This document shows positions 33,965-52,312 of a stretch of DNA of 64,000 nucleotides, in pieces. Below the pieces are notes generated by a model. That model had not been told where the DNA came from and did not search any database. It saw only the letters and a program-made list of their open reading frames with translations. The DNA is taken from positions 1,116,001-1,180,000 of the forward strand of contig NZ_LR778301.1 in NCBI RefSeq assembly GCF_902813185.1, in the 5' to 3' direction. Within the stretch, counting starts at the first letter, position 1. Each line of letters starts with the position of its first letter. The stretch comes from Denitratisoma oestradiolicum (GTDB lineage Bacteria; Pseudomonadota; Gammaproteobacteria; Burkholderiales; Rhodocyclaceae). The position numbers and the translations under genes were made by a program.

Positions 33965-34012
33965 TTTTAGTGCGTTTGCATCATGTCACGCCACCCTCGC
34001 CTCTTCATACTT
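33965..34012 (+). promoter_or_regulatory. island promoter box, copy a
   Basis: TAGTGCGTTTGCATCATG ends at 33985, followed after exactly 20 bases by CATACTT at 34006-34012. The inner part GTGC-GTTT-GCA(C/T) is a dyad. The same box with the same spacing occurs at four other promoters of the island. It lies 61 bases before the start codon of the BKACE gene. Confidence 0.8.
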
Positions 34013-34072
34013 TGCTCACGGGCGTTACGAGGCCCCGGGACATTTTCGATTTCCATTAGAGGAGCACGAGTT

Positions 34073-35038
34073 ATGACATACAGCCAGGATGTTTGGGACC
34101 CGAGCAATGAGAAGCAATGGGTAAATGCGGTGGCGCAGAGCAAGCTGCCGCCTTTGGTCATTTCCGTCGCCCTCACCGGTGGCGTGCATGGTAAGGAAAG
34201 CAATCCCAACCTGCCGGAAACCGCGGAGGAACAGGCCCAGCAGGCCTATGACTGCTACAACGCCGGCGCCACCTATGTTCATCTTCACGCCCGGGTTCCC
34301 GGCCAGCCTTGGCAGACGAGCACGGACTCCGCGGTTTACCGGAACATGAACCGCAAGGTCCGGGAAAAGTGTCCCAAGATCATCATCAACAACACCTGCG
34401 GCGGCGGCTATGGCGCCGACCTGAGCCAGGCCCTGGCACCATTGGAGGCCAATCCCGAAGCGGCGAGCCTCGACATCGGCCCCCTGGCAACCCGTTTCAT
34501 CATGAAAAAGCGGCCGGAAGCCGGGCGCATGGAGGACGTGAATTTCGAGGCCGTGGCACCGTTCGGCTATGAAATGACGGAAACCTACGCCAAGGCCATG
34601 ATGGATAAGGGCGTGCGTCCCGAAGTCGAGGTCTTCCATCCAGGCTGCTGGTCCCTGGTGCACAATCTCATCGACAAGGGGCTGCTCAAGCCTCCCTATC
34701 TGACTCAGCTGGTCTTCGGCTTCCAGAGCGGCAGCTATCCCACACCCAAGCAGATCATCCATCTGGCGGAAACGGCACCCAAGCCTTCCAGCCTGACGGT
34801 GCTGGGCGTAGGGCCATGGCAACCCTCGGTAATGACCATGGGCATCCTGATGGGCATGAATGTGCGGACCGGGATGGAAGACAACCTGTATATGGGTAAG
34901 GGACAACAAGTCCAGAGCAATGCCCAGCTCGTGGAAAAGGTGGTGCGGCTGGCCCGGGAGCTTGGCCGCGAAATCGCCACCCCCGAGCAGGCACGGGAAA
35001 TACTCGGTTTCTCGCAGACCCCCACCACCTACGATTGA
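34073..35038 (+). CDS. BKACE-family beta-keto acid cleavage enzyme
   Basis: 321 residues from the ATG at 34073, with AGAGGAG upstream. It is a DUF849/BKACE protein, a zinc TIM barrel related to 3-keto-5-aminohexanoate cleavage enzyme. The zinc site is seen in TYVHLHARVPG, followed by D-S-A-V-Y; IIINNTCGGGYG and the early VALTGGVHGKE are also typical. The family condenses a beta-keto acid with acetyl-CoA to acetoacetate and a new acyl-CoA. The true substrate cannot be read from sequence; the neighbourhood suggests a steroid- or ring-derived keto acid. First gene behind promoter box a. Confidence 0.85.
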   Translation: MTYSQDVWDPSNEKQWVNAVAQSKLPPLVISVALTGGVHGKESNPNLPETAEEQAQQAYDCYNAGATYVHLHARVPGQPWQTSTDSAVYRNMNRKVREKCPKIIINNTCGGGYGADLSQALAPLEANPEAASLDIGPLATRFIMKKRPEAGRMEDVNFEAVAPFGYEMTETYAKAMMDKGVRPEVEVFHPGCWSLVHNLIDKGLLKPPYLTQLVFGFQSGSYPTPKQIIHLAETAPKPSSLTVLGVGPWQPSVMTMGILMGMNVRTGMEDNLYMGKGQQVQSNAQLVEKVVRLARELGREIATPEQAREILGFSQTPTTYD

Positions 35039-35139
35039 CCAATGGGCCTTCGGCCCATCCCGACAAATCCTTTCCTCGATGCGGGGCCGCCTTTCCCGGT
35101 GCCCCCGCAGGGTGATGTTCGCACATGGAGAAAACGCAA

Positions 35140-37548
35140 ATGCCCAATGCCCTGGCTCATCTTCGGGTTGTAGAGATCGGACAAGGCATCTCGGGTCCGT
35201 ATTGCAGCAAGTTGCTTGCCGATCTGGGCGCGGATGTGATCAAGGTGGAACCTCCGCTGACCGGCGACCCACTGCGCCAGGCAGGCTCCTTCCCCGATGA
35301 TGAGGATGACCCGAGCAAGGGCACGCTGTTTCGCTACCTGAACGCCAACAAGGGAAGCATTGAATGTGACCTCGGCTCCGAGGAGGGGAGGAAGACACTT
35401 CTCGACCTGGTGAAAGCTGCCGACCTGGTCATTGAAAATCTGGGGGCCGGGGTACTCGAAGCCCTCAAGCTGGGATTCGATGTATTCGAGAAGGCCAACT
35501 CAAAGATTGCTTTGATCAGGATTTCGGATTTTGGCCAGACAGGTCCCTATTCTGGTCAACCCGCCACCGATCTGACGGTGCAGGCCGCTGCGCAATGGGT
35601 GAATAATCACCATGTGCCGGAACTTCCTTTGCTCCAGGCAGGCGGCCGGATTCCAGACTACAACGTTGGCATCTACGCTGCTGCTGCCGCTCTCACAGCC
35701 TATTCCATAGCATCCACTTCAGAAAAGGCGGTTTACTTCGATGTATCCAAGCAGGAAAGCTTGGTGTGCTGTCTCGGTGCAGTCTGGCTGCACATCGAGA
35801 CACTGACATCCCTGGGGTGGGGAATTCCTGCAGAACGACATTTCCCCTTCCCTGGGGTAGTTCGCTGCAAGGACGGCCTGGTCAGCATTAACGCTTTGAC
35901 CGGGCAGAATTTCATTGATTGTTGTCATCTGCTGGAGGTACCCCAGTACATCCCCAAGCAGATGGAAATCACCTACGGCGGACCCGACTTCGATGGATTC
36001 TTCCGCGACATCGAGCCCTGGCTCATGGAGCGGACCGTAGAGGAAGTCGTGGAGATATGTCAGGCGATGCGGATTCCCACTGTGCCGATTTCCAATGGCA
36101 AAACCCTGTTGGAAGTACCGCAGCTACAAGCCAGATCATTCTTCATCCGCGATCCTGACGAGGGCTTCGTCCGTCCCGGCTTCCCCTATCGGCTCGAACA
36201 TACCCCCGCAAGCTTGCGTAAAGGGACCCCCCGATTGGGCGCAGACAACCCGATGGACGAATCGATGCCCTGGAGCCCGAGGGAATCCACCGGACAAGCA
36301 ACGCAAACGGGCAATGGTGAATTCCCCTTCGAAGGATTGCGGGTGATTGACCTGGGGATATTCTGGGCCGGACCCTATATCAGCTGTTATCTGGGAGCCT
36401 ACGGGGCAGACGTCATCAAGGTGGAATCGATCCAGCGCGCGGACGCCTTCCGGTTTCAATGCGCGTATCCGGAAGAGGGACATGACTGGTACGAACGAAG
36501 CAGCATTTATCAGCATACCAACCTGAGCAAACGTAATCTCACGCTCAATCTTGATGCGCCTGAGGGAAAGCAGCTCTTCGAGCAATTGTTGGCAAAGGCC
36601 GACGTGGTGATCGAGAACTTTACGGCCCGGGTAATGGATAACTTTGGATTTACCAGGGAGCGCCTCAAGGAGATTAACCCGAGCTTGATTATCGTACGTG
36701 TTCCGGGGTTTGGCCTGGAAGGACCGTGGCGAGATTTCACCAGCTTTGGCATGCCATTGGAGCAAGTTAGCGCGATGTCCTGGGTTACCGGCAACCCCGA
36801 TGGCCCACCAGTCAATCTGGGGGGATATGCGGATGCATTCGTCGGCATGCATGCGGTGGTGGCCTTACAGGCGGCATTGATTCACCGTGCGCGCACTGGT
36901 CAAGGTCAGATGGTTGAGGTGCCTCAAATAGAAGTCGGCGCATGTCTGACGGCAGAGCAGGTAATCACCCATTCCGTAACGGGAAAGATTGTGGGGAGGA
37001 TGGGCAACCGCAGCGATACGATGGCCCCTCAAGGCGTTTATCGTTGCTCATGCGGGCAATCGGTTGCGCTTTCCATCAGGGACGATAACGACTGGAACCG
37101 ATTCAGGACGATGTCCCCGGTGAATACCTGGGCACAGGATGGTCGCTTCTATTCCCTGAAGGGACGGCTGGCGCATCATGATGAACTCGATGAGTTGATT
37201 TCCCTGTGGACAAGCCGGATCACTGCGAATTCGGTCATGACCGCCCTGCGGGAGATGGGAATTCCCGCAGCGATCGTGCTTACCCAGCCGAACATCCCCA
37301 GCGAGCCCCACCTGGTTTCACGGAATTTTTTCCAGGAACTCGACCATCCGCTGACCGGTGTGCGGCGCTATCCACGGTGGCCGTGGCTCCAGTCTTCAGG
37401 GGCGAACGGAGAACATCGGTTCCGCTCCCCAACCTTGGGGGAGCACAACCATGAAATCCTGAGAGAAGAGCTTGGACTCTCAACCGATGAGATTACCCAC
37501 CTTGCCTCAAAAGAAATAATTGGCACTGTCCCTAAGGGGTTGGGATGA
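35140..37548 (+). CDS. double-domain CaiB/BaiF (family III) CoA-transferase
   Basis: About 802 residues, twice the usual length: two family III CoA-transferase domains in one chain. Both start alike (VVEIGQGISGPYCSKLLADLG and VIDLGIFWAGPYISCYLGAYG), each followed by GADVIKVE. The start at 35140 is favoured by GGAG nine bases upstream; another ATG is at 35125. In domain 1 the catalytic Asp is present in QPATDLTVQAA; in domain 2 the aligned position reads SFGMPLEQVSA, so Asp appears to be Gly. Domain 2 may be structural or bind substrate. It probably activates a catabolic acid to its CoA ester. Confidence 0.85.
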   Translation: MPNALAHLRVVEIGQGISGPYCSKLLADLGADVIKVEPPLTGDPLRQAGSFPDDEDDPSKGTLFRYLNANKGSIECDLGSEEGRKTLLDLVKAADLVIENLGAGVLEALKLGFDVFEKANSKIALIRISDFGQTGPYSGQPATDLTVQAAAQWVNNHHVPELPLLQAGGRIPDYNVGIYAAAAALTAYSIASTSEKAVYFDVSKQESLVCCLGAVWLHIETLTSLGWGIPAERHFPFPGVVRCKDGLVSINALTGQNFIDCCHLLEVPQYIPKQMEITYGGPDFDGFFRDIEPWLMERTVEEVVEICQAMRIPTVPISNGKTLLEVPQLQARSFFIRDPDEGFVRPGFPYRLEHTPASLRKGTPRLGADNPMDESMPWSPRESTGQATQTGNGEFPFEGLRVIDLGIFWAGPYISCYLGAYGADVIKVESIQRADAFRFQCAYPEEGHDWYERSSIYQHTNLSKRNLTLNLDAPEGKQLFEQLLAKADVVIENFTARVMDNFGFTRERLKEINPSLIIVRVPGFGLEGPWRDFTSFGMPLEQVSAMSWVTGNPDGPPVNLGGYADAFVGMHAVVALQAALIHRARTGQGQMVEVPQIEVGACLTAEQVITHSVTGKIVGRMGNRSDTMAPQGVYRCSCGQSVALSIRDDNDWNRFRTMSPVNTWAQDGRFYSLKGRLAHHDELDELISLWTSRITANSVMTALREMGIPAAIVLTQPNIPSEPHLVSRNFFQELDHPLTGVRRYPRWPWLQSSGANGEHRFRSPTLGEHNHEILREELGLSTDEITHLASKEIIGTVPKGLG

Positions 37549-37603
37549 CTCCTTGGAGATAGACCCAGGAACATTACGAAGACGGTCATCGGAGGAGTCG
37601 ATA

Positions 37604-38344
37604 ATGCGGAGAGTTGCGCTGGTTACCGGCGGCATGGGCGGTCTGGGTGAGGCGATCTGTGTCAAGCTGGCCGCCCTGGGCTACAAGGTCGTCACCAGCC
37701 ATAGCCCATCCAACGCCAAGGTCGGGGACTGGCTGCAGACCATGAACCACATGGGCTATGGCTTCAGTGCCTATCCCTGCGACGTCGCCGATTTCGATTC
37801 CTGCCGCGACTGCGTGGCTCAGATAGAGAAGGATCTGGGACCGGTGGATGTGCTGGTCAATAACGCGGGCATCACCCGTGACATGACCTTCAAGCGCATG
37901 ACCAGAAATCACTGGGATGCAGTGATCCGCACCAATCTGGATTCCGTATTCAACATGACCAAGCAGGTCATGAATGGCATGACTGACCGCAACTGGGGCC
38001 GGGTAATAAACATTTCGTCAGTCAATGGTCAAAAAGGCGCCTTCGGCCTGACCAATTACGCCGCCGCCAAGGCCGGGATGCATGGCTTCACCAAGGCCCT
38101 GGCCCTGGAAGTGGCCAAGAAGGGGGTTACGGTGAACACCATCTCGCCGGGCTATATCGGCACCAAGATGGTGAGAGCGATTCCCAGGGAGGTACTGGAA
38201 AGCAAGATATTGCCCCAGATCCCCGTCTCCCATTTGGGAAAGCCCGAGGAAGTGGCGGGCCTGGTGGCCTATCTGGCCTCCGAGGAGGCTGCCTTTGTGA
38301 CCGGAGCCAATATTTCCATCAACGGCGGTCAGCACATGTTCTGA
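37604..38344 (+). CDS. PhbB-like acetoacetyl-CoA reductase (SDR)
   Basis: 246 residues, ATG with GGAGGAG upstream. Classical SDR: dinucleotide site VTGGMGGLGEAI at 7-18, DVLVNNAGITRD, catalytic Ser in VINISSVNGQKG, Tyr and Lys in TNYAAAKAGMHGF, and C-terminal FVTGANISINGGQHMF, all as in PhbB/FabG3 type NADPH acetoacetyl-CoA reductases. It would reduce acetoacetyl-CoA or a related 3-ketoacyl-CoA. It lies 55 bases behind the CoA-transferase on the same strand. Confidence 0.9.
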   Translation: MRRVALVTGGMGGLGEAICVKLAALGYKVVTSHSPSNAKVGDWLQTMNHMGYGFSAYPCDVADFDSCRDCVAQIEKDLGPVDVLVNNAGITRDMTFKRMTRNHWDAVIRTNLDSVFNMTKQVMNGMTDRNWGRVINISSVNGQKGAFGLTNYAAAKAGMHGFTKALALEVAKKGVTVNTISPGYIGTKMVRAIPREVLESKILPQIPVSHLGKPEEVAGLVAYLASEEAAFVTGANISINGGQHMF

Positions 38345-38408
38345 TGGGCTGAGGCAGCCAGCTTCCCCGGCAAAGCAATGACTTCTTTATGGGAAAGAGG
38401 AACAAGAA

Positions 38409-39149
38409 ATGACAAAGAGAGTTGCACTGGTGACAGGAAGCATGGGTGGCCTGGGCACCGCGATCTGCAAGGCGCTCGCCCAGAGCGGCCATACCGTGGT
38501 GGCGAACTGCCTGCCCAATTTTCCACCCAAGGACGAATGGCTGGCAAAAACCAGGGCGGAGGGTTTTGACTTCCATATTGCTGAAGGCGATGTATCTGAT
38601 TTCTACTCATGCACTGCCATGGTCCGCAAGATCGAGGCCGAGATCGGCCCGGTCGATGTGCTGGTGAATAACGCAGGCATCACCCGGGATGGCGTGTTCC
38701 GCAAGATGGACAAGGCCCAGTGGGATGCGGTGCTGACCATCAACCTGGATTCCGTGTTCAACGTCACCCGCCAGGTGCTGGAAGGCATGGCGGAGCGGGG
38801 CTGGGGTCGGGTGATCAACATCTCCTCCCTCAATGGCATCAAGGGCCAGTTCGGTCAGGCCAACTATTCCGCCGCCAAGGCAGGCATCCTCGGTTTCACC
38901 AAGGCCATCGCCCAGGAAGTGGCGAAGAAGGGGGTGACCGTCAATGCCATCGCCCCCGGCTACATCGCCACCGAGATGGTCATGGCCATCAAGCAGGAGG
39001 TGCGCGATTCCATCACCGCCACCATCCCCGCCGGCCGCATGGGCACACCAGAGGAAATCGGTGGGCTGTGCGCCTACCTGGCCTCAGACATCGCAGGCTA
39101 CATGACCGGCGCCACCCTGAATATCAACGGTGGCCTGCACATGTATTGA
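38409..39149 (+). CDS. PhbB-like acetoacetyl-CoA reductase (SDR), second copy
   Basis: 246 residues, a close paralogue of the preceding gene: VTGSMGGLGTAI, NNAGITRDGVF, VINISSLNGIKGQ, ANYSAAKAGILGF and ATLNINGGLHMY. All catalytic residues (Ser, Tyr, Lys) are kept. Differences cluster in the region after the first strand (ANCLPNFPPKDEWLA), which in SDRs shapes cofactor and substrate choice, so the two may serve different stereo- or chain-length substrates. Last gene of the operon starting at box a. Confidence 0.9.
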   Translation: MTKRVALVTGSMGGLGTAICKALAQSGHTVVANCLPNFPPKDEWLAKTRAEGFDFHIAEGDVSDFYSCTAMVRKIEAEIGPVDVLVNNAGITRDGVFRKMDKAQWDAVLTINLDSVFNVTRQVLEGMAERGWGRVINISSLNGIKGQFGQANYSAAKAGILGFTKAIAQEVAKKGVTVNAIAPGYIATEMVMAIKQEVRDSITATIPAGRMGTPEEIGGLCAYLASDIAGYMTGATLNINGGLHMY

Positions 39150-39200
39150 TGCCGACGAGGCTCACCTGACGGAGTATAGAGGGATGAGAACCCGGAAGTC

Positions 39201-39246
39201 CTAATGCGTTTGCACCATGCCTGACATCTCATACCTATGCATACTG
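39201..39246 (+). promoter_or_regulatory. island promoter box, copy b
   Basis: TAATGCGTTTGCACCATG ends at 39219 and CATACTG begins at 39240, again with 20 bases between. It lies 52 bases behind the second reductase and about 130 bases before the VPA1262-like gene, which it probably drives. Confidence 0.75.
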
Positions 39247-39378
39247 CACACATGGATGTAGCGGATCAGTAGCTGCACCAAGGCATGGCAAGGCGCACAG
39301 GAATATGAAATTGCGCCCAATGCGCTGCCTGTTTGCACACACTTCTACGGCCGAAAGGCCTTGAGGAAAGGAAGGACA

Positions 39379-41356: not shown

Positions 41357-42469
41357 TCAATTGACCCAGACAGTTTTCATCATGCTGAGAATATGGCTGA
41401 CCAGCTGGGCTTGCCGATGGACTCCTGTCCGCTCGAAGATCGAGGCCAACTGGGTTCGAGCCGTGAAGCGGGAGATCCCAAGTGAGGCAGCTGCATCGAT
41501 GAGGCTCTGCCCCTTAACAAGGCGGACCGCCAGGGCGGCTTCGGCCCGTGAAAGTCCCAGAAATTCGATCAGCGCGCTATCGGTAACATCCGGAGTATAG
41601 CTTGCATCACGGAGCAGCACAATCACCGGAGACTGCGCCTTCTCGTCCACTCCGGGCCGCGGCTGCGAAGAGCGGACCAGAAGGCTCCAGTAGCGTTCCC
41701 CATCAACTCGCCGAACCTTCATGGTCTGATTTCCGGAAAGCTGCGGATTGCTACCATGCAGGCGACTCAACAACGTACGCAACGCACGATCGTCCTTGGG
41801 GTCGCTACAGTGGAGCACACCGTCTCGGGCATAGAATCCATCCTGGGCTAGAAGCACTCGGTCCAATACCATGTTCTTGATCAGGATACGGCACTTGTCG
41901 TCAAGAACCCCGGAACCAATGGCGACCTGGCCAGTGGTCTCGTCAAGCACACTCAATCGATACTCCTGTAGTGCAATGCGGGCATAGAGAGCGATTGCGG
42001 TACGAAGGCGGGGGATCATGGCCTCGAAGATTTTTCGCTCGCGCTCTCCGAATCCAGACTCACCTTCAATCCTGGCTGCCCGCAACCTGAACATCATGCC
42101 GGTACGCGGCTCGATCATATTGACGCCAATCAGCTCTGTAGTCTGACTGAAATGTCTGATGAACTGTCTATAGTATGTCGCGTGCTGGTTCTCAAGCTGG
42201 CTTTTGGTAAGAATACATACCTTGCCTTCAGGCAAATCTAGGAAGGGAGAATCGCGGTAATATTCCCTCTGCAGCGCGGCCATTGCCAAACTGTTGGTGG
42301 GGTTTGCAATCCAGATTCCGGCATCTCCGTCACGAGGACGGCGTAGAACCATTGTGGCGTGATGGCAGGGAAGCTGGTTTTCCAGCGCATCAAGAAATGC
42401 AAGCCACGGCGAATCATCGAGAATACTGGCATAAAGCGTGTTGATCAGTTGCTCTAGAGCATGCGACAT
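41357..42469 (-). CDS. LuxR-type transcriptional regulator
   Basis: 370 residues from the ATG at 42469 (MSHALEQLINTLYASILDD), with GGAG upstream; a longer frame starts at 42514. The C-terminal 60 residues are a LuxR/GerE helix-turn-helix (LSRAEAALAVRLVKGQSLIDAAASLGISRFTARTQLASIFERTG). The N-terminal 230 residues look like a PAS/GAF-type sensor as in other large LuxR proteins of steroid degraders, with no receiver Asp pocket. It is the only regulator inside the island and so the best candidate to bind the repeated promoter box. No such box precedes its own gene. Confidence 0.85.
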   Translation of the reverse strand: MSHALEQLINTLYASILDDSPWLAFLDALENQLPCHHATMVLRRPRDGDAGIWIANPTNSLAMAALQREYYRDSPFLDLPEGKVCILTKSQLENQHATYYRQFIRHFSQTTELIGVNMIEPRTGMMFRLRAARIEGESGFGERERKIFEAMIPRLRTAIALYARIALQEYRLSVLDETTGQVAIGSGVLDDKCRILIKNMVLDRVLLAQDGFYARDGVLHCSDPKDDRALRTLLSRLHGSNPQLSGNQTMKVRRVDGERYWSLLVRSSQPRPGVDEKAQSPVIVLLRDASYTPDVTDSALIEFLGLSRAEAALAVRLVKGQSLIDAAASLGISRFTARTQLASIFERTGVHRQAQLVSHILSMMKTVWVN

Positions 42470-42736
42470 GAATCGATAACTCCGAGTGCTATAACGCTTG
42501 GCAATAGATCCCAATACATAGCATAAACGCCAAGATGGGTACTAGGGAACTTATTAAGTCCGCCACACCAGCCGGTGCCCAGTTTGTTAATTTTTCTGGA
42601 TTCCGACGTCCGCTGGAATGAATTTCAACTGGTTCAGCATTTCACTAAGACCTGAGTACCCAGCGTTACTGGAAATATATAGAGATCCCATAGTAGTCTA
42701 GAGACGGACCTACCCTAGGCAGCCCCCATCATGCTT

Positions 42737-42760: not shown

Positions 42761-43417
42761 TTATAGAGAAATATCACGCAACTGCGGCGAAATGATGAGT
42801 CTTGCCTCGGTGGCGCACTGAATTTCTTCGACGGTGAGGTCCGCCGCCTTCTCCACCAGAACCAGACCATCACGGGTAACATCGATCACCCCATAGTCCG
42901 TGATGATGCGGGTGACCACGCCAACCCCTGTGAGCGGTAGGTTGCATTTCTTGAGAATTTTTTTCTCTCCGTTCTTGGCGACGTGCTCCATGGTGACGAT
43001 GACCCGCTTGACACCGGCCACCAGATCCATCCCTCCGCCCGGCCCTTTGACCATCTTGCCAGGGATCATGTAATTGGCGATGCTGCCGCAGGCGTCCACC
43101 TGCATGGCCCCGAGTATGGTCAGATCGATGTGTCCTCCGCGAATCATGCCGAATGACAGCGACGAATCGAAGTAGGACGTTCCCGGCAACTCGGTCACCG
43201 TTTGTTTGCCGGCGTTGATGAGATCGGCATCTTCCTCACCTTCGAAGGGAAATGCCCCGTAGGCAAGAATGCCGTTCTCCGAGTGAAAAACGACCTCCAT
43301 CTCCTTCGGGATGTAGTTGGCTACCAGCGTTGGAATGCCGATCCCAAGGTTTGCGTAGTAGCCGTCGCGCAACTCTTGAGCGGCGCGCATGGCAATTTGT
43401 TGACGTGTCAGGGGCAT
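42761..43417 (-). CDS. 3-oxoacid CoA-transferase subunit B
   Basis: 218 residues from the ATG at 43417 with GAGGAGG upstream. It is family I CoA-transferase beta subunit: NLGIGIPTLVANY at 24-36, the catalytic Glu in FHSENGILAYG, and GKMVKGPGGGMDLVAG. ScoB/PcaJ-type length. With subunit A it moves CoA from succinyl-CoA to acetoacetate or another 3-oxoacid, which would link BKACE product to the PhbB-like reductases. Last gene of the operon behind box c. Confidence 0.9.
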   Translation of the reverse strand: MPLTRQQIAMRAAQELRDGYYANLGIGIPTLVANYIPKEMEVVFHSENGILAYGAFPFEGEEDADLINAGKQTVTELPGTSYFDSSLSFGMIRGGHIDLTILGAMQVDACGSIANYMIPGKMVKGPGGGMDLVAGVKRVIVTMEHVAKNGEKKILKKCNLPLTGVGVVTRIITDYGVIDVTRDGLVLVEKAADLTVEEIQCATEARLIISPQLRDISL

Positions 43418-43439
43418 TGTTGTCCTCCTCTGGGGGGTT

Positions 43440-44141
43440 TTATGGGCGCGGACGTGTAGTACGCTGCTCGATGCGCTTCTCGAAGCAGTCTCCGACGACG
43501 ACACGATCAACGAAGATCCCAGGTGTATGCACGAGATCAGGATCAAGCTCGCCAAACTCGACCAGCTCCTCCACCTCGGCAATGCAAATCTTGCCCGCCA
43601 TCGCACAGAGCGGATTGAAGTTACGCGCCGCCTTACGATAGATGAGGTTGCCATGGCGATCGGCCTTGTAGGCTTTCACCAGCGCGAAGTCGCCAACGAT
43701 GGCGTGTTCCATCACCATAGGACGCCCGTTGAATTCTCGGGTCTCCTTACCTTCTGCAAGCTGCGTGCCGTAGGCTGTCGGCGTGTAGAAGGCCGGGACA
43801 CCGACCCCTCCGGCTCGGAGCCTCTCCGCCAATGTCCCTTGGGGATTGAGCTCGACCTCGAGCTCGCCACTCATGAACTGTTTTTCGAAGTTCTTGTTCT
43901 CTCCAACGTAGGACGCGACCATCTTTTTGATCTGTCGAGCTGCGAGCATGAGCCCCAAGCCGAAGTCATCCACCCCACAGTTGTTGGAGACCACCGTGAG
44001 GTTCTTTGGACCTTTGTCCACCAAAGCGCGGATCAGATTTTCAGGAATTCCGCACAAACCGAAGCCGCCGGCGACAAGCGTCGCACCATCCTCGATGTCA
44101 GCTACGGCCTCAGCAGCGCTAGCGACAACTTTGTTTATCAT
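43440..44141 (-). CDS. 3-oxoacid CoA-transferase subunit A
   Basis: 233 residues from the ATG at 44141, which overlaps the stop of the preceding gene (ATGA). Typical for ScoA/Pca[41 protein letters not shown], and [24 protein letters not shown]. It pairs with subunit B 22 bases downstream. Confidence 0.92.
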
Positions 44142-44740
44142 CGCGATACTCCGCGCGCAAAGTCTTCCGGAGAGCATCCATCAGGTGGCCAGGAAACCGT
44201 ATCCGCTTCGACGGGAACCTTAATGCAGCGCAGCATCAAAGAAACAGCGTGCCAGGTGGCGATTGCAAATACAAGCTCCAGGCGCGCCTCTGTTCCCTCG
44301 AGATTCTGCTCACAACGTGCCCACGTTTCGTCGGAAATTGTCCCGGTGGATATGACCTCGTCCGTTGCCGCAAGGACGGCTTTTTCGGCAGCGCCGAGAT
44401 GCGTCGAGGCTTGCCAATCCCGAACCTCCAGCAGATCCTGCTCCGTACAGCCGAAGGCTTTCAATGCGGTGTACCAGTGCTGAACCCACTCGTATTCACA
44501 GTTGGTTTTCCAACCGATACGCATGATGACCAGCTCGCGTAGCCTGCCATCGAAGGCGGAATCAAAAAGCTGTGCGTAGAGCAGCCCCTGAAGTGCCTTG
44601 GCTACACGGGGGCTCTGAAAGAGGATGCGGAAAATATTGCGATCATGCAGCTCTGGCGGAATACCGGCTTCGGTACCAATTTTTGCCATCTCTTCGGCGG
44701 AAAGCAGCGGAATGCGGGGTGTTTTCCTGTTTTCAGACAT
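44138..44740 (-). CDS. AhpD/carboxymuconolactone decarboxylase-family protein
   Basis: 200 residues from the ATG at 44740 with AAGGAG upstream. The core [22 protein letters not shown] followed by a second helix set ([11 protein letters not shown]...) is the CMD/AhpD fold. The peroxidase C-x-x-C pair is not present: only one Cys (in TNCEYEW) remains and the second is replaced by Trp/Val, so AhpD-type redox activity is unlikely. Family members without the pair act in diverse catabolic steps, and the role here is unknown. It lies between the KAS III-like and CoA-transferase genes. Confidence 0.8.
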
Positions 44741-44833
44741 TGGTATTGCTCCTTTCAGGTACAAGCAGTGACAGCTCACCGCGTTATTGCGGATCGCAAA
44801 TGACGCATTCGCCCATCTCCAGCCGCCAATTGG

Positions 44834-45868
44834 TCAGTGAATCCTGACCATGGCACCGGCCCATGAATAGCCGACACCGAATCCGACGACCATGACGTTG
44901 TCCCCGCTGCGGATCACCCCTTGCTTCGAAGCGCTCTGCAAGGCGACCGGGATGGTCGAGGAGACGGTGTTGCCGCAGGTTTCCATCTGCAACCAGAACT
45001 TGCTTGTGGGAATGTTCAACTCGTTGCGCAACTGCTCCAGCAGGAACTTGTTGGCCTGGTGGAAGATGAAGTGGTCGACCTGATCAATGGAGCCGCCCCA
45101 TTTCAGGAGAAGCTGATCGATAGCTTTGGGAACTTCTCTCAGGACGAAGCTCAGAACCTCCCGCCCGTTCATGTACAGGTTCTGCAGCGAACGACGGCTG
45201 CCGTCAGGAAAGTCTCGTACCAAAGCGGTTGCGCTGGAGGTCGGATGTCTCATTCCCCCGGCAGGGACGATCAAATTATGGGCTCCGCTACCATCGGTAC
45301 CGAAAACAAAGGGGCCGATAAGATCCGTATCAGCCTCCACCGCGCCGATGAGGGTGGCTGCCGCCGCATCGCCAAACAGTGTCCGTACCGTAGGGTCCTT
45401 GGCGTTGAGGTATTTCGTGTAAGTGTCCGCCGTGATCAGCAGCACATTGCGCGCAGCGCCTGTCTCAATCAGGCCTTTGGCCACCCCCAGGCCATATACA
45501 AATCCGGAACACCCCTGATTGAGATCGAAGGCGCCACAATCGGTGCGCAGTCCCAAGCGATGCTGCAAAAGACATGCAGTCGCCGGCAGGAAATAATCCG
45601 GACTTTGAGAGCAAAAGAGGAGGAAGTCGATATCGGACGGCGCACACGAACCCTGTGCAAACAATTGCTGGGCGGCAGCGAAGCCCAAGTCGGAGGCGCA
45701 TTCGTCCGGTCCTGCCACCGAGCGCACAGCGATCCCCGTGCGATCGAGAATCCTGGAGGCACTCCATACCCCCAGTTCCCGTTCCAGCTGCTCATTCGTC
45801 AGCTTGCCTTCCGGGAAGTGGCAGCTATGGGACTTGATCGCGGCCTTGGCCGTCGGGCTGAATTTCAT
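44834..45868 (-). CDS. ketoacyl synthase III-like protein (FabH family)
   Basis: 344 residues. Catalytic Cys120 in DLNQGCSGFVYGL, His in FIFHQANKFLLEQ and Asn in METCGNTVSSTIP form the full FabH triad. The family condenses a CoA-bound starter with an acyl-ACP or acyl-CoA, or cleaves in reverse. Inside a catabolic operon it may act as a thiolase-like enzyme. It is the first gene of the minus-strand operon KAS III-CMD-CoA-transferase A-B and has box c 66 bases upstream. Confidence 0.88.
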   Translation of the reverse strand: MKFSPTAKAAIKSHSCHFPEGKLTNEQLERELGVWSASRILDRTGIAVRSVAGPDECASDLGFAAAQQLFAQGSCAPSDIDFLLFCSQSPDYFLPATACLLQHRLGLRTDCGAFDLNQGCSGFVYGLGVAKGLIETGAARNVLLITADTYTKYLNAKDPTVRTLFGDAAAATLIGAVEADTDLIGPFVFGTDGSGAHNLIVPAGGMRHPTSSATALVRDFPDGSRRSLQNLYMNGREVLSFVLREVPKAIDQLLLKWGGSIDQVDHFIFHQANKFLLEQLRNELNIPTSKFWLQMETCGNTVSSTIPVALQSASKQGVIRSGDNVMVVGFGVGYSWAGAMVRIH

Positions 45869-45933
45869 GGTCTGTACTCGAAGTCTTCACCAACAATCAA
45901 CATGTCGCCAGATGCCAAGCATTGCGTTGAATG

Positions 45934-45981
45934 AAGTATGAGGAGATCGACCTGATTCCACATGGTGCAAACGCACTAAAA
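45934..45981 (-). promoter_or_regulatory. island promoter box, copy c
   Basis: On the minus strand TAGTGCGTTTGCACCATG is followed after 20 bases by CATACTT (45940-45934). The box contains the perfect dyad GTGC-GTTT-GCAC. It serves the KAS III-like operon. Confidence 0.82.
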
Positions 45982-46115
45982 CAAGCCGAATCGGTATTTT
46001 CTAAGTTTTCTGTTACTCAACAATTGCAATCGCAGCCCCCTTAGCCGAGCACTGCCAGTGCATCTATAGGGTCATGAGGTTTGTTTTATCTGTGTTGACC
46101 GCCTGACGATGCGAT

Positions 46116-47333
46116 TCATGTTTTTCCTTTGACTGCCAAGGGAAGGAAAACGATCACTGCGACCCCGACAGTACTGGCCAAGACTAGGAAGGCCGCCGAG
46201 TAATTGCCAGTCAAGTCGTACAAGTAACCGACCATGGGTAATGCCAGAATTACCATAACGATGCTTAACGGTTGCATAAATCCCATAACACGTCCAAAAA
46301 TCAAGGGGCCATAAACCTCTGCCACCAGGGCGCCCCAGGCCGGCAAAAATGCTCCGGAGGAAAGCCCTACCGAAATCGCAGCAAGTACGATGATCGGAAA
46401 TTCATGGAACCAGACCAGCAACAGTAACGGTAATCCTGCCATCAACAAAGCTGCCAAAATGCAGTACTTCATATTGATGCGATCAGCAAACACACTGAAA
46501 AGAACTTTGCCGCTAAAACCAGAAACTGATATTACTGAAACCAATAGAGCAGCCTGGGAAGACGGCACTCCGTAGCCCATGGCAAAAGGTACCAGATTTG
46601 CCAGGACCGTCATGAACGTCGCTATGGACACGCCGATAGCCATAGAAATACGCCAGAAGGAAGCATCCTTCATAAGGTTCGGCAATTCAGTTTTGAGCGA
46701 TCCGGCCTCGGGTGGGTGGGATTCATCCAGAACCTGCCCCCCATCAGAGCGTAAACCCAGATCGGCAGGCTTGTTCCGCACCAGCCAGAAAATTGGTGGC
46801 AGCAATATCAAAAGGATAATCCCCGCCATAAGCAGACAGGCTTTTCGCCAACTATGCATACCTTCTATCAAGGCTTGCAGGATCAGGGGGACCAAGAGCC
46901 CCCCCAAGGATGTACCCATGGCTGTGATACCCATGGCGCGTCCACTACGCCGGGAAAACCAGCGGGCCACCAATGTATTGGCCCCTAGCGGCCCTAGCAG
47001 GGTGCTACCCAGGGACATCACAAAACCATAAATCAGAATGAATTCCCAGATATTTCGGGAGAAGGAAATCAGCATTAGGGATGCAGAAAGAAACATTGTG
47101 CCAACAGCATAAATGGAACGAGCAGACCGTTTGTCCATCAGGGAGCCAGCAATGGGGGAAATTAGCATCGTAGCCAGAGAGCAAGCCGTCAACGCCCACA
47201 TCATCTCCATTCGTGAAGCACCGAACTCATTGCCTACCGGCAATACCAATAGCCCGAAGGAATAACTGGTGACACCACTGCTCATTCCCAATACCAACAT
47301 GGCTACAATCACAATTTTCCATCCATGGAACAT
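46116..47333 (-). CDS. MFS transporter
   Basis: 405 residues with twelve hydrophobic segments. It opens MFHGWKIVIVAMLVLGMSSG; the loop between helices 2 and 3 reads GSLMDKRSARSIYAVG, a variant of the MFS G-x-x-x-D-R/K-x-G-x-R motif. It belongs to the oxalate/formate antiporter-like (OFA) or monocarboxylate clade by general look. It could import the growth substrate or export an acid. The leader before it is unusual: 190 bases containing a relic of another transcription unit. Confidence 0.88.
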   Translation of the reverse strand: MFHGWKIVIVAMLVLGMSSGVTSYSFGLLVLPVGNEFGASRMEMMWALTACSLATMLISPIAGSLMDKRSARSIYAVGTMFLSASLMLISFSRNIWEFILIYGFVMSLGSTLLGPLGANTLVARWFSRRSGRAMGITAMGTSLGGLLVPLILQALIEGMHSWRKACLLMAGIILLILLPPIFWLVRNKPADLGLRSDGGQVLDESHPPEAGSLKTELPNLMKDASFWRISMAIGVSIATFMTVLANLVPFAMGYGVPSSQAALLVSVISVSGFSGKVLFSVFADRINMKYCILAALLMAGLPLLLLVWFHEFPIIVLAAISVGLSSGAFLPAWGALVAEVYGPLIFGRVMGFMQPLSIVMVILALPMVGYLYDLTGNYSAAFLVLASTVGVAVIVFLPLAVKGKT

Positions 47334-47523
47334 CTGGCTATTTTCTCCCGGGTTAGATAGAAAAAAGAGGTCCGCTCACTCGGGCGGGCCAACTCAGCTG
47401 GACAGAGAAAATTTAGCTGATAGGATATCTAGGTCGCATTAGAGGAGCCTATACAGCATGGAATGCGGCTCAAAAAAGATATCTTCTGACCAAAAAATAG
47501 GGAACTTCTTTTTTTTCCCGGAA
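47334..47523 (-). repeat. relic of TonB-receptor leader and terminator
   Basis: About 140 bases here (47333-47478) match 49655-49797, the tail and terminator of the TonB receptor gene: shared are AGATAGAAAAAAGAG, GGGCGGGCCAACTCAGCTGG and CATTAGAGGAGCCTAT. The other side, next to box d, matches the leader of the same receptor gene (GGTCAGAAG-A/G-T-A/G-TC). The hairpin copy is decayed (GGCCCGCCC against GAGCGGACC). So promoter and leader are joined directly to the 3' end, as if the whole reading frame had been deleted. Confidence 0.75.
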
Positions 47524-47572
47524 AAGTATGTCGGGATTAGCGATGGGTAACATGATGCAAATGTATTAGAAA
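47524..47572 (-). promoter_or_regulatory. island promoter box, copy d
   Basis: On the minus strand TAATACATTTGCATCATG is followed after 20 bases by CATACTT (47530-47524). The left dyad arm is degenerate (ATAC for GTGC). It lies 190 bases before the MFS start. From 47573 to 47769 I see no gene. Confidence 0.75.
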
Positions 47573-47769
47573 GTTGCTGTTCGATGCAGAGAGCTACTTT
47601 ACTCATTGGAAATAGAAGTCTGGATCAGGGAACACCTAGCACTCACTGAATTTCATGACCGGATACCACTGGGTCGGATTTTCAGAAATAAAACAATAAA
47701 GTGCAGCTGATTCAGGTTTTTTCGTGCAGATAAGAATTCCATCGGGCTTTCCTCTACGGATCGAAAACA

Positions 47770-49449
47770 TCAGGTCTTTTCCAAGTGACTGACTGCCCGA
47801 TAGCCAAACACCATCGCAGGACCGAGGGTGCCTCCCGCGCCACCGTATACCCGGCCTAGGGGGGCCGCGGCATTGTTGCCGATGCAGTAGAGCCCGGGAA
47901 TGGGAGTTCCCGATTGATCAAGTGCCTGGGCGTCCTCGGTTACCGCGGGACCACCTTTTGTTCCCGTATCTCCGGGATCAACTCGGACGGCATAATAAGG
48001 CGCCTGGTCGATGGTGACGAGACAAGGATTAGGGCTGGTTCCCTTTATGGTCCAGTAGCGGTCGTGGGCGCTCTCGCCCCGTTGGAAGTCCAGGTCCACG
48101 CCGGTGCTGGCGTAGGCGTTGTTCTTTTGAACGGATTCCATCAGACCCGCTGAATTTACACCGATCTGGCGTGCCAGTCCTTCCAAGGTATCGTCCTTAA
48201 AAAGGAAGTCTCCAAACCACTCCTTCGGTATCTTGGAATCTGGCAGCACTGATGCCGGCAGCAGAGGGCCCAAGGGGCAGTTCTTACGATATTTGGCATC
48301 AAGGATAATCCATGCAGGAATGCAGCCGCCCGTTTTAGCATGATCAGCGTACATAGCTTCAACGAAGCGATCATAGGAAATAGTTTCGTTGACAAAGCGT
48401 CTGCCCTGCTTATTAACGGCAATGCTGCCACCGAAGCCACGCTCCGCAAATATGGCCTGCTGGCCTTGCTGAAGAGCTTTGGGGGAGCGTACTGTGGGAG
48501 TTCCCCATATCATCTGCATGTTTTCCAATTTGGCACCGATCGCCTCGGCAGCTCGGATGGTATCTCCCGTATTGAGATTCTTCGGAGTGCAAGACCACTC
48601 CTGACGACTGGGTTGAGTATGGTACTGGTCGCGCATTGCCTGGTTCCTCTCGAATCCGCCAGCGGCCAGGATTACCCCACGCCGCGCCCGCAAGGTGACC
48701 GGGCTCCCTTTCCGGCGGGCGATGATGCCAGTGATCCGGCCATCCTCGTGGATCAACGATTCCAACGGACAGTTAAGCCAGAGCGGGATGTTGCGTTCCA
48801 GCATGGCGTGGCGCAAGCCACCGATGAGGGCATTGCCCAGACATAGCCGTCGATCCCGCTTGGTCTTGAAGCGCCAGGGCAGGTCCAAGTAGTAGCCGAG
48901 CATGATTTTTAGCAAAGTCCATAGCCAGCCCGGAGCCTTGGTAGCGATGATGTTAGATTCCGGGATGGTCATGCCGATCCCCATCAACGTGGCGCCGGGG
49001 TGAGTGGGTCGCAAATTTTGGATTTCCTCTCCCAGCAGTGCGCCGTTGAAGGGATCCGGTTCCATGGCCCGTCCTGTATCCACTGCACCGGGTATATCCT
49101 GATAGTAGTCGGCATAGTCGGCGTTTACCCGATAGCGCAGAGCAGTCTTCTCGTTAAGGTAACGGATCATGTCCTTGGCGGAGTCCAGATAGGCCCGGAT
49201 CTTGATGTCCGTCGTGGTTCCTGACGCTGCGGCCTTCATGTAAGTGAAGGCGGATTCATAGCTGTCCGGCGCTTCACCGTTGAGGGGAATCCACAGGGCG
49301 CCTCCTGATGTGGCGGAAGTACCTCCGTACTGATCGCTTTTTTCGATAGCCAGCACCTTCATCCCCAGGTCATGAGCGCGCAGGGCAGAGAGCAGGGCAC
49401 CTCCGCCCGTGCCCACCACGATTACATCGTATTCGTAAGACTCACTCAT
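47770..49449 (-). CDS. FAD-dependent 3-ketosteroid dehydrogenase-like protein
   Basis: 559 residues from the ATG at 49449, with AAGGAGG upstream. FAD site YDVIVVGTGGGALLSALRAHD at 7-27, then YGGTSATSGGALWIP, the usual loop of KstD/fumarate-reductase-like flavoproteins, and the end GGAGGTLGPAMVFGYRAVSHL. This is the clade of 3-ketosteroid delta1- and 3-oxo-5-steroid delta4-dehydrogenases; the position of the introduced double bond cannot be told. A terminator separates it from the TonB receptor gene upstream, so it has its own promoter in 49450-49690, where no island box is seen. Confidence 0.88.
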   Translation of the reverse strand: MSESYEYDVIVVGTGGGALLSALRAHDLGMKVLAIEKSDQYGGTSATSGGALWIPLNGEAPDSYESAFTYMKAAASGTTTDIKIRAYLDSAKDMIRYLNEKTALRYRVNADYADYYQDIPGAVDTGRAMEPDPFNGALLGEEIQNLRPTHPGATLMGIGMTIPESNIIATKAPGWLWTLLKIMLGYYLDLPWRFKTKRDRRLCLGNALIGGLRHAMLERNIPLWLNCPLESLIHEDGRITGIIARRKGSPVTLRARRGVILAAGGFERNQAMRDQYHTQPSRQEWSCTPKNLNTGDTIRAAEAIGAKLENMQMIWGTPTVRSPKALQQGQQAIFAERGFGGSIAVNKQGRRFVNETISYDRFVEAMYADHAKTGGCIPAWIILDAKYRKNCPLGPLLPASVLPDSKIPKEWFGDFLFKDDTLEGLARQIGVNSAGLMESVQKNNAYASTGVDLDFQRGESAHDRYWTIKGTSPNPCLVTIDQAPYYAVRVDPGDTGTKGGPAVTEDAQALDQSGTPIPGLYCIGNNAAAPLGRVYGGAGGTLGPAMVFGYRAVSHLEKT

Positions 49450-49654
49450 TGATGGCGTCCTCCTTGTGGTCGTTTTTTGTGTTTTCTGGGCTCTATATTC
49501 CGCGATGGACCATGGCCTTCCTTGGCGTCCAGAAACTACGGTCACGCTGGCCAGGCCTTCTCAATCAAGGTAATAAAGGATTTTTCCAGTGCGTAGACAT
49601 AGAGCATGTGGATAATGCGACGGGCGATATTCAGACGTCACTTAACGAGAAACC

Positions 49655-49797
49655 TAGAACATCTGGCCATCCTCTTTAAGATAGAAAAAAGAGGCCCGCC
49701 CTCTCGGGCGGGCCAACTCAGCTGGACAGAGAAATTTAGCTGAGAGGAGATCTAGGCCGCATTAGAGGAGCCTATGCAGCCTGGAATGCGGCTCAGA
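49655..49797 (-). terminator. TonB-receptor terminator within duplicated 140-bp segment
   Basis: GGCCCGCCC-TCTC-GGGCGGGCC at 49693-49714 is a perfect 9-bp stem; on the minus strand it is followed by TC and six T. It terminates the TonB receptor gene that stops at 49793. The whole 140-base segment recurs before the MFS gene. Confidence 0.85.
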
Positions 49798-52153
49798 AGC
49801 GATAGATCACATCAAAACCCACGGTACGACGTGGCGCCCATAATCCCAGCGCTGTTCCCGTGATGCCGCCAAACGGAGCACCCGCCATAACATAGGACAG
49901 ATACTTCTTGTCGGTCAAATTCTTGGCCCATAGACCCACAGAAACATCGCCCTGTCCGTCGGGGGCTGTGCTGATCCCATTCAGAGCCAGACGGCCGTTC
50001 CACACGCTGTATGCCGGCGTCAGGTCCAGTTCGCCAAACTTGGTCGCCGTAAAGCCCGCAAAAACGCCTCCTTGGGTAATGCCATCGGTCGTCGATCCCG
50101 ACTGGGCATCCATGTGGCTATAGTCCAAGTGGGCCTCAAGTCTCCCGGGGAACCCCAGGTCCGGAAATCGGTAATCGACATTAACCGTGTAGTTGTTCTT
50201 GGGCAGTTTCCGGTAGAAGCGGGAAGCCACGTTGGTGGTGGTTCCGGGCGCAACGACCTTCTTGTACTCCAGATCCAGTCGTGTCCAGCTGAGCCCGAGA
50301 CGCAGGTTCTTGGTGACTGCATAAGCGACCTCAAGCTCAAGCCCCTTGATCTGGGACTTGCCGGCGTTGGCGATGATTGCGGTATAGCGGCCAACTACTT
50401 GGGGATCCGCAATCTGCATCTGCTGATCCTTGTAGTCCATCACAAAGTAGGCCAGGTTGGTCCGCAGGCGATTCTCGAAGAACTGTCCCTTGAAGCCCAG
50501 CTCCTGGGAGGTCAAGGTTTCCGGTGAGAATCCGGTAAGGGCACGGGCCAGGTTGCCATCTCCCATGTTGAAGCCGCCGGTGCGATACCCCTTGACGATC
50601 TTTCCGTAGCCCATCATTTGATCGTCGAAGTGGTACATGACGGATAGAGAGGGCGTGACCTTGCTTCCTGTCAGGTGTCCGCTGCCACTTTGTGTTGGTG
50701 TAGGCCCTAAGGATTGTCTGTAACTCGTGGCGTCGAGGGCGTAGGAGACGATTCCATTATCGATCACACTGACATCGCGGGTATCACGGGTATAGCGAAC
50801 GCCCGGCACAATCTCAAGCTTCCTGGACAGCACATCGGGCCGCCAACTGAATTGGCCATAGGCTGCCCAGGATTCATTGCGCGCCCAAGCCTGATGCGGA
50901 CGAATAAGCGTGGCGGAGTTGGCCGAGGGGCGGTAGGAATATTGGGAAGGGGCTTCGTATCCCTTTTCTTCAAAGTAATAAAGGCCAGCCGTGTAGTTGA
51001 AGTAATCAGATGGGCGACCCACAAACTGGAATTCCTGTGAGATCTGGTCCTGATTGACGATGCTAGGTACGCTGGAGGCCGGCATGGGGACTGTGACGCT
51101 GCTGGCCGGGGGAAGCGAGGTCACCGGCCCGGCGATGTATCCATAATTCCCCGATGAATAGATCATGTTCTTGTAGTAGGTCTCGGTCAGCTTCCGATAT
51201 CCCGTGATGGAGCGGACCGTCAGTGTGTCGCTGGCGACCCAGTCCACATTGACGGTATGGCCCTCGACCTCGATTTCGCTGTCCGGTTGCGCAGAAACCC
51301 CGGTCAGGGTGGAGCGGTAATCGCTTGTGCAATCGGCTTTGTTGGCCAGGATTGTGGTTGCCCCCAGACAGACGAAGGGCTGATCCTGTAGCTTCATCTT
51401 GGTGAAGTCATAGCCATAATCGACGGTGACCATGGAAGCGGGTTTCCAGCGGAAATCCAGGCGCCAGGCATCGGTTTGGGAGGTCCCCAGCTCCGGCCCA
51501 GGGCCAGAGTTCTTGATGCCGTTAACCGGCTCATCGATGGACTTGTGCAGGTACGAGATGCGAGCTGCCAGGGCATCGGTGATCGGAAGGTTGGCAGCGG
51601 TCTTGGTCACCAATTGGTCCCGGGTGGCAACGGTCACCTGCTGCTTGAAGTGGAAGCCGTCGAAGGTGGGCTTGGCCGTGACGATATTGACCGCGCCAGC
51701 AACAGCATTCCTGCCGACGAGAGTCCCTTGCGGCCCCTTGAGGATTTCAACGCGTTCAAGATCTGCCGCCGTGACGGAATTGAGACCATCGGAACGCGCC
51801 AGATAGACGCCGTTCAAGTGTATGGCGACAGGCTGATCCAGGGTCACCGCTGCACTGAACTGCTGGCTACCCCGCATTGTGATGAATAATGTTGATTCTT
51901 GTGCCAGGGGGAAATTGTTGATCGTCACCCCGGGTGCTTGGGATCGCATATCGGTGAGGCTAACGATCACATTCTTTTCAAGCGCTGCTGCATCAAGCGT
52001 CTGGATGGAAATCGGAACATCCTGTACGTTCTCCGCCCTTTTCTGGGCAGTCACGATGATCTCCTCAAGTGCAGCCTCCCCCTTTGCCCAAGCTGATGCG
52101 CAGGTCACGAATGAGGCACAAATCATTGTGTGTATCATTTTTTTCTGAAACAT
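49793..52153 (-). CDS. TonB-dependent outer-membrane receptor
   Basis: 786 residues. Signal peptide (MIHTMICASFVTCASAWA), then a plug domain starting LEEIIVTAQKRAENVQDVPISI with the TonB box at IIVTA, GPQGTLVGRNAVAGAVNIVTAKP as the conserved plug end, and a 22-strand type barrel ending in VGFDVIYRF with terminal Phe. It belongs to the large group used by Betaproteobacteria and sphingomonads for hydrophobic or complex organic substrates; steroid uptake would fit the island. It has box e 111 bases upstream and a strong terminator. Confidence 0.92.
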   Translation of the reverse strand: MFQKKMIHTMICASFVTCASAWAKGEAALEEIIVTAQKRAENVQDVPISIQTLDAAALEKNVIVSLTDMRSQAPGVTINNFPLAQESTLFITMRGSQQFSAAVTLDQPVAIHLNGVYLARSDGLNSVTAADLERVEILKGPQGTLVGRNAVAGAVNIVTAKPTFDGFHFKQQVTVATRDQLVTKTAANLPITDALAARISYLHKSIDEPVNGIKNSGPGPELGTSQTDAWRLDFRWKPASMVTVDYGYDFTKMKLQDQPFVCLGATTILANKADCTSDYRSTLTGVSAQPDSEIEVEGHTVNVDWVASDTLTVRSITGYRKLTETYYKNMIYSSGNYGYIAGPVTSLPPASSVTVPMPASSVPSIVNQDQISQEFQFVGRPSDYFNYTAGLYYFEEKGYEAPSQYSYRPSANSATLIRPHQAWARNESWAAYGQFSWRPDVLSRKLEIVPGVRYTRDTRDVSVIDNGIVSYALDATSYRQSLGPTPTQSGSGHLTGSKVTPSLSVMYHFDDQMMGYGKIVKGYRTGGFNMGDGNLARALTGFSPETLTSQELGFKGQFFENRLRTNLAYFVMDYKDQQMQIADPQVVGRYTAIIANAGKSQIKGLELEVAYAVTKNLRLGLSWTRLDLEYKKVVAPGTTTNVASRFYRKLPKNNYTVNVDYRFPDLGFPGRLEAHLDYSHMDAQSGSTTDGITQGGVFAGFTATKFGELDLTPAYSVWNGRLALNGISTAPDGQGDVSVGLWAKNLTDKKYLSYVMAGAPFGGITGTALGLWAPRRTVGFDVIYRF

Positions 52154-52263
52154 CGCTTTCCTCCTCCGAAAATTTCCCTACAGATGGAACACCCATGGGG
52201 ATATGACACCTTCTGACCGACAGAAATTGTTAACTACAGTCAGGGATTTCTTATTTCTCAGGA

Positions 52264-52312
52264 AAGCATGTCAGGCTTGGCAAGCGATGACATGATGCAA
52301 ATGCACTAAAAA
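52264..52312 (-). promoter_or_regulatory. island promoter box, copy e
   Basis: On the minus strand TAGTGCATTTGCATCATG is followed after 20 bases by CATGCTT (52270-52264). About 60 bases around it are also similar to the region around box d. From 52313 to 52480 no gene is seen. Confidence 0.8.

Follow-up and report, generated by a model that had tools for sequence, protein, structure and literature searches.

We analyzed a 64-kb window of the Denitratisoma oestradiolicum genome (the whole stretch of 64,000 nucleotides, G+C content 56.6%, to which coordinates refer unless stated otherwise), in which an island of catabolic genes carries five copies of a short box with dyad symmetry. They lie ahead of a beta-keto acid cleavage enzyme (BKACE) operon, a VPA1262-like gene, an operon headed by a ketoacyl synthase III (KAS III)-like gene, an MFS transporter gene and a TonB-dependent receptor gene. 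The same island encodes a LuxR-type regulator; in our reading the boxes belong to a set of nine promoters of this genome that probably form one regulon, activated by the LuxR-type protein at the dyad in class II fashion.

A search for TAGTGCRTTTGCAYCATG allowing up to three mismatches returned five matches in the window and no sixth, compared with a mean of 0.20 in shuffled sequence, five being reached in none of 100 shuffles. The spacer between the box and the -10 element is exactly 20 bases at all five sites (CATACTT three times, CATACTG and CATGCTT once each), and every box is aimed at a gene start lying 88 to 218 bases ahead. An earlier interpretation of this DNA (hereafter the sequence-only reading) had described the five boxes, their fixed distance to CATACTT or a one-base variant, the gene behind each of them and the absence of a further copy from the window; all of this was borne out, except that the coordinates it gave for the boxes are shifted by 1-4 bases.

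The composite pattern, box-N20-CATACTT with up to three mismatches, was found nine times in the 4.29-Mb genome and never in the reversed control; five of these sites lie in the window island and four in a paralogous island at 854-868 kb, about 0.3 Mb away. The sequence-only reading had named many genome-wide copies as an outcome that would speak against it, and none of the nine composite sites falls outside the two islands. The box alone gave 13 matches at the same threshold, the four off-island ones carrying three mismatches each and having no CATACTT-like sequence 20 bases behind them. A congener (genome G001) has four box sites at up to two mismatches, all in its single island, where they front four units (TonB, KAS, VPA1262-like and BKACE) as in D. 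oestradiolicum; a third Denitratisoma genome (G002) has no box at that threshold. The catabolic regulon of one architecture proposed from the window is well supported and proves larger, with nine sites in the genome and four in the congener. The N20 spacer is kept in 13/13 sites of the genus, and CATACTT is exact in nine of them.

Over 12 orthologous promoter pairs, identity reaches 94% in the box and 88% in the -10, compared with 55% in the spacer, 51% in the 33 bases after the -10 and 31% in the 40 bases before the box. With the box and the -10 kept and the spacer and upstream sequence diverged, this is the mark left by selection acting on a pair of elements that must stay a set distance apart. 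Simple duplication as the source of box conservation was ruled out, as spacer and upstream sequence differ between copies. A chance repeat was excluded by the shuffles together with the whole-genome scan and its reversed control, and a repeat borne by an insertion sequence by the placement of boxes at gene starts in three islands with unrelated sequence upstream.

Table 1. Boxes and genes of the window island, and candidate emtABCD genes to its right.
Feature	Position	Strand	Details
Box 1, TAGTGCGTTTGCATCATG	33968..33985	+	-10 CATACTT at 34006-34012; BKACE operon; gene start 88 bases on
BKACE	34073..35038	+	PF05853, E=7e-80
CoA-transferase family III, double-length (two stretches)	35125..37548	+	PF02515
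SDR, acetoacetyl-CoA reductase-like	37520..38344	+	TIGR01829, above cut-off
SDR	38409..39149	+	PF00106
Box 2, TAATGCGTTTGCACCATG	39202..39219	+	-10 CATACTG at 39240-39246; VPA1262-like gene; gene start 142 bases on
VPA1262-family gene, 619 aa	39361..41220	+	NF040699, above cut-off
LuxR-type regulator	41357..42514	-	likely start near 42466, 369 aa; behind KAS operon, same strand
3-oxoacid CoA-transferase subunit B	42761..43654	-	TIGR02428, above cut-off
CoA-transferase, second subunit	43440..44177	-	PF01144
Carboxymuconolactone-decarboxylase-like protein (CMD)	44138..44779	-	PF02627
KAS III-like ketoacyl synthase	44834..45868	-	PF08545/PF08541
Box 3, TAGTGCGTTTGCACCATG	45961..45978	-	-10 CATACTT at 45934-45940; KAS III-like operon; gene start 93 bases on
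MFS transporter	46116..47333	-	PF07690; homolog in G001 island, none in paralogous island
Box 4, TAATACATTTGCATCATG	47551..47568	-	-10 CATACTT at 47524-47530; MFS gene; gene start 218 bases on
FAD-dependent 3-ketosteroid-1-dehydrogenase-like (KstD-like) protein	47770..49545	-	below NCBIfam cut-offs
TonB-dependent receptor	49793..52153	-	PF00593/PF07715
Box 5, TAGTGCATTTGCATCATG	52291..52308	-	-10 CATGCTT at 52264-52270; TonB receptor gene; gene start 138 bases on
DUF4346	55182-56111		emtABCD candidate
MtmB-like	56246-57622		emtABCD candidate
B12-binding	57710-58348		emtABCD candidate
DUF2889	58652-59467		emtABCD candidate

The box consists of a 16-bp dyad, TRRTGC-N4-GCAYYA (positions 1-16), followed by TG. 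The ATG at positions 16-18 is unchanged in the variant boxes of relatives described below; it was built into the patterns that found most of those variants, and was not required by the matrix made from the 13 genus sites. This ATG opens a hexamer, ATGNNN, placed 17 bp before the -10 at the -35 location, in which the TG alone is fixed (the sigma-70 -35 consensus is TTGACA), and our preferred reading of it is a remnant of a -35 adjoining the dyad. The centre of the dyad would then fall near -42.5 from the predicted start, close to where the lux box and class II activator sites are centred, as for LuxR at the lux box. With the dyad near -42 over the -35 and a fixed distance to the -10, the layout is that of a class II (lux-box type) promoter, as judged on predicted starts and geometry only. 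None of the five boxes coincides with a promoter in a sigma-70 consensus scan, a weak test in that the scan yields fewer sites than shuffles do. The overlap of box and -35 noted in the sequence-only reading was confirmed, and the weak -35 and missing consensus promoters are consistent with the activator dependence that it had suggested.

The LuxR-type gene is the sole regulatory gene common to all three islands (76-78% identical), and the congener G001 has only one homolog of it (E<=1e-10). A TetR-type (54477) and an XRE-type (31787) regulator were considered and rejected, having no match in 40 kb of each sister island. An AlphaFold2 model (pLDDT 89), fold matches and homologs suggest for the protein a LasR-LBD/GAF-like N-terminal domain, a PAS-like domain and a C-terminal helix-turn-helix (HTH), the C-terminal helical unit spanning residues 296-368 with pLDDT of 92-97 at residues 301-350. 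One close homolog (P0013, 62% identity) carries PF00196. The protein had already been put forward as a candidate, on inference; comparative evidence raises this guess to a well-supported prediction that the LuxR-type protein governs the boxes.

Relatives of the regulator were collected at three levels: 23/199 genomes of the family had a homolog at E<=1e-10, a profile search of the order gave 54/399 genomes at E<=1e-15 (many matching the C-terminal half only), and a search of named genomes with alignment A1 gave 288 relatives, the best 80 of which were kept as loci; an earlier scan of the named-genome contigs with one protein had returned no match. Scanning 34 loci around homologs with the 13-site matrix, we found related boxes at N20 in Pandoraea (TAGTGCATTTGCCCGATG), in G002 (TAATACATTTGTATCATG) and in G045 and G231 (TAGTCCGTTGGGACGATG) with scores of 20-26, the control being a single plain shuffle per locus with a maximum of 10.7; weaker matches (12.8-14.8) appeared in Burkholderia, Haliea and G002, and many loci had nothing above the shuffle. 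A loose box pattern gave 32 matches in 100 loci, two of which (L081 and L155) overlap, chance matches included, compared with a block-shuffle mean of 5.0. A count at L020-L048 (7 in 85,579 bases) was dropped as a control, these loci having been selected by the box pattern itself.

The exact variant TAGTCC-N4-GGACGATG, a pattern without the -10, occurs at 42 sites in 18/199 family genomes and nowhere in the reversed control. An A...T hexamer follows at offset 20 in 28 of the 42 sites and at offset 21 in seven, with 0-6 at every remaining offset between 8 and 33. Such a -10 at 20 or 21 is present at 34/36 sites in genomes with a homolog vs 1/6 in genomes without. Of the 18 variant-box genomes, 12 belong to the 23 that have a LuxR homolog (Fisher p 3e-9; counted by genus, 8/13, p 3e-4). 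Such figures overstate the evidence because orthologous promoters of related species are not independent. In G178, six sites and four homologs all lie inside 207 kb of a 4.17-Mb genome. Three loci that we take to be from the family Halieaceae carry TAGTACAGGTGTACGATG or TAGTACAGTTGTACGATG, at a distance from the homolog of no more than 0.1 kb (L082, L084) or of 8 kb (L083), and G289 has TAGTTCGATCGAACGATG 1.2 kb from its homolog with a -10 match at 19. On plasmids, three boxes stand within 0.3 kb of two homologs in Cupriavidus (L296), and four occur in 31 kb in Caballeronia; a -10 follows at N20 in three of these, and one has just 2/4 dyad pairs. Plasmid pVa1 of Vibrio alfacsensis has two boxes with 3/4 dyad pairs each, found by a loose scan that also listed non-box-like matches; they precede an acyl-CoA dehydrogenase gene by 114 bases and an electron-transfer flavoprotein gene by 132 bases, respectively.

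The halves of the dyad covary between groups (GTGC/GCAC, GTCC/GGAC, GTAC/GTAC), which is expected of a dimeric regulator, and they do so in step with the regulator branch. Denitratisoma has the recognition helix SRFTARTQL together with the GTGC box, and the Vibrio and G178 regulators share RRNTARAHLRSIF together with a GTCC-type box; the residue before TAR is F in Denitratisoma vs N in all six GTCC-type regulators compared. On balance we lean towards the view that a family of LuxR-type regulators with GAF-like, PAS and HTH domains, spread over Beta- and Gammaproteobacteria and also on plasmids, shares one promoter grammar for steroid and related catabolic operons, T-[AG]-[AG]-T-x-y-N4-y'-x'-A-Y-[GC]-ATG, then 20-21 bases, then the -10. 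The dyad letters would be particular to each branch, which would let paralogous regulators of a single cell address separate operons, and the GTGC/GCAC of Denitratisoma would be one branch with a changed recognition helix.

Several observations weigh against these assignments. The match of the regulator to GerE (PF00196, residues 321-374) has E=0.0085 and 16.1 bits, below the cut-off of 23.5. Conservation of the dyad's right half is poor in the nearest off-island relatives (Pandoraea, Burkholderia, Haliea and G002 L155), three of these four having best scores of 12.8-14.8, not much above the shuffle maximum, and the other four homologs in D. oestradiolicum itself have no recognisable box in 20-kb stretches. 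Within the family, 11/23 homolog genomes have no exact variant box, 6/18 variant-box genomes have no LuxR homolog, and the boxes of G028 lie more than 100 kb from its one homolog. At the level of the order the composite variant is found in 1/399 genomes, G289; the homolog there is full-length, as it is in G475 and G437, which have no exact composite variant. In the stretches scanned, no box was seen near the regulators in steroid settings in G475 (L255) and on a Sphingobium plasmid (L298), and homologs L110-L154, mostly from mycobacteria and relatives, gave five loose-pattern matches, none starting with TAGT. Seven 20-kb stretches around distant homologs (L287-L293) held no HsaA-, IpdA- or KstD-like gene (E<=1e-8) and no convincing box.

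As a mechanism for the nine promoters we propose that a LuxR-type dimer would bind the TRRTGC-N4-GCAYYA dyad, centred about 42.5 bases before the expected start, where it would abut the weak ATGNNN -35 lying 17 bp before the -10 CATACT; together with a presumed ligand, the bound protein would act in class II fashion and bring RNA polymerase to the promoter, in the way of LuxR at the lux box. The KAS operon is followed in the same orientation by the LuxR gene, which may thus be cotranscribed with it, and activation at box 3 would then reinforce synthesis of the regulator itself.

The same protein might instead act as a repressor, blocking polymerase at the -35 until released by an inducer. The overlap of dyad and -35 would suit this, and a LuxR-type repressor has been reported in Comamonas testosteroni (PMC8700777, PMC6678751). 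With a weak -35 and no sigma-70 promoter at the five sites there would be little to repress, however, and a spacing constant within one base over many genomes seems more an activator's need, so that we regard repression as unlikely. Less probable again is that the box is read by an unlinked regulator of another kind, the LuxR gene being only one of the targets of that regulator or a neighbour. The binding of LuxR is a prediction from sequence, the LuxR gene may itself be transcribed from box 3, and the variant-box genomes without a homolog are what such a regulator could leave; but five of the six sites in those genomes lack a spaced -10 and resemble chance matches, and variant boxes adjoin different members of one LuxR-type family in both Beta- and Gammaproteobacteria. 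We give very little credence to the idea that box and CATACTT form the promoter of an alternative sigma factor with the box as a long -35. Two conserved elements at fixed spacing would be shared with such a promoter, whereas a 16-bp dyad with covarying halves is as for a dimeric regulator, the -10s of the relatives are varied A...T hexamers, and none of the 13 window-island genes scanned encodes a sigma factor. Activation by the LuxR-type protein remains the reading that we prefer.

Compared with the quorum-sensing activators LuxR and TraR, which act at lux and tra boxes, the regulator has an extra PAS-like domain and 369 residues vs about 240, and the dyad spacing of 4 and the catabolic gene targets also set it apart. 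VqmA and EL222, in which a PAS or LOV sensor is joined to a LuxR-type HTH, are among its top Foldseek matches (VqmA at rank 2) and share the PAS-like domain beside the HTH; the N-terminal LasR/GAF-like domain is missing from both, and low whole-model TM-scores (0.20-0.26) limit the likeness to a partial one. By description, not by sequence, the protein is comparable to TesR/TeiR of Comamonas testosteroni, a LuxR-type protein that activates genes for steroid degradation (PMC8700777, PMC6678751, PMC12239570): a LuxR-type HTH, predicted for the window protein, is common to them; TesR/TeiR exerts positive control of steroid genes, and some relatives of the window regulator stand in steroid clusters. 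In Caenibius tardaugens a LuxR regulator called TesR-like, EGO55_13855, belongs to the progesterone cluster pdc (PMC12239570). A homolog of the window regulator occurs in the sphingomonad Croceicoccus estronivorus (L087); unlike in Denitratisoma, no such box was found at the sphingomonad loci L085-L087 and L298. C. tardaugens also has EdcR, an estrogen-dependent TetR-type repressor that controls estrogen catabolic operons via a palindrome (PMC8700777); it shares palindrome control of catabolic operons with our system and differs in being a TetR-type repressor, and according to the authors of that paper D. oestradiolicum lacks any regulatory gene resembling EdcR.

In the parts covered of PMC7448270, PMC8700777, PMC6895838, PMC6678751, PMC12507874, PMC13101464 and PMC12239570, no operator is given for TesR/TeiR or for the regulator of the progesterone cluster. 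A LuxR-type catabolic activator at a class II promoter is a known kind of system, and we found neither the operator of this regulator family nor its family-wide grammar described in the literature searched. D. oestradiolicum is one of few known anaerobic estrogen degraders, and the portions of the literature searched held no description of how its catabolic genes are switched on. With its precise operator sequence, a named candidate for the activator and a set of 13 promoters, the regulon is directly testable, and the variant boxes could allow the targets of LuxR-type regulators of steroid catabolism to be predicted from sequence in other bacteria.

Downstream of the variant boxes in relatives we found two HsaA-like monooxygenases (the best named family, below its cut-off), two CoA-transferases, flavin reductases, SDRs, MFS, old-yellow-enzyme-like, DUF1329 and TauD-like proteins, and four proteins without a Pfam match. 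A flavin reductase behind a variant box fits the hydroxyphenylacetate enzyme better than HsaB, which suggests that not all targets are steroid-specific. HsaA- and KstD-like genes adjoin a homolog in G475, and a 3-ketosteroid-9-alpha-monooxygenase is near a homolog on the Sphingobium plasmid. On pVa1 (L294:1-41104, from a fish gill sample), the member of the LuxR family and the two boxes lie in an apparent cluster for steroid side-chain and ring catabolism, annotated with a lipid-transfer protein, an OB-fold protein and many acyl-CoA dehydrogenases. The genes at the variant boxes, together with the Vibrio and Sphingobium clusters, point to steroid catabolism as the process served by the regulator family.

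For the window island, indications of a steroid role are indirect: the organism grows on estradiol, one KstD-like protein is encoded, perhaps outside the regulon, and to the right of the island stand four genes that, from their domains and a published description, are candidates for the estrogen methyltransferase genes emtABCD (Table 1). A disruption of emtA in strain DHT3 is on record (PMC12507874). The enzyme set of the island (BKACE, 3-oxoacid CoA-transferase, acetoacetyl-CoA reductase-like SDR and KAS III-like protein) points to the processing of a beta-keto acid and acetoacetate. The main text of the proteome paper (PMC7448270), in the parts covered, makes no mention of BKACE or TonB, and a literature search linking BKACE to steroids returned no paper. 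Behind the TonB gene stands a terminator-like hairpin, and the FAD gene encoding the KstD-like protein has no box ahead of it; this gene may therefore lie outside the regulon. Its membership is doubtful, and it has no homolog in either sister island.

PADLOC gave no match for the product of the VPA1262-family gene as a defence protein, and its homologs in the paralogous island (an open reading frame of 224 aa, L015:2083-2757) and in G001 lack roughly residues 40-420.

The paralogous island repeats the TonB receptor, the KAS III-like protein, CMD, both CoA-transferase subunits, the LuxR-type regulator, one SDR, the double CoA-transferase III and BKACE at 77-99% protein identity to the window island; its short VPA1262-like gene is about 70% identical, the other SDR is present in fragments only, and nothing there matches the MFS and FAD genes. 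The window island is mosaic: identity to the paralogous copies is 98-99% for BKACE, CMD, one SDR and one CoA-transferase subunit, and the KAS III-like protein is nearer to that of G001 (89%) than to the paralogous one (83%). In G001 the TonB receptor gene that follows the box is split by about 1.1 kb with a transposase-like frame, as seen by eye (G001:C1 ~243896-244978). The left border of the window island (32000-33700) holds transposase remnants, one of them IS110-like by eye, and the right border an rve-type integrase (53097-53918). The G+C content of the island is 55.3%, compared with 62% for the whole chromosome (PMC7448270), and with its transposase and integrase borders this makes the island look acquired and mobile.

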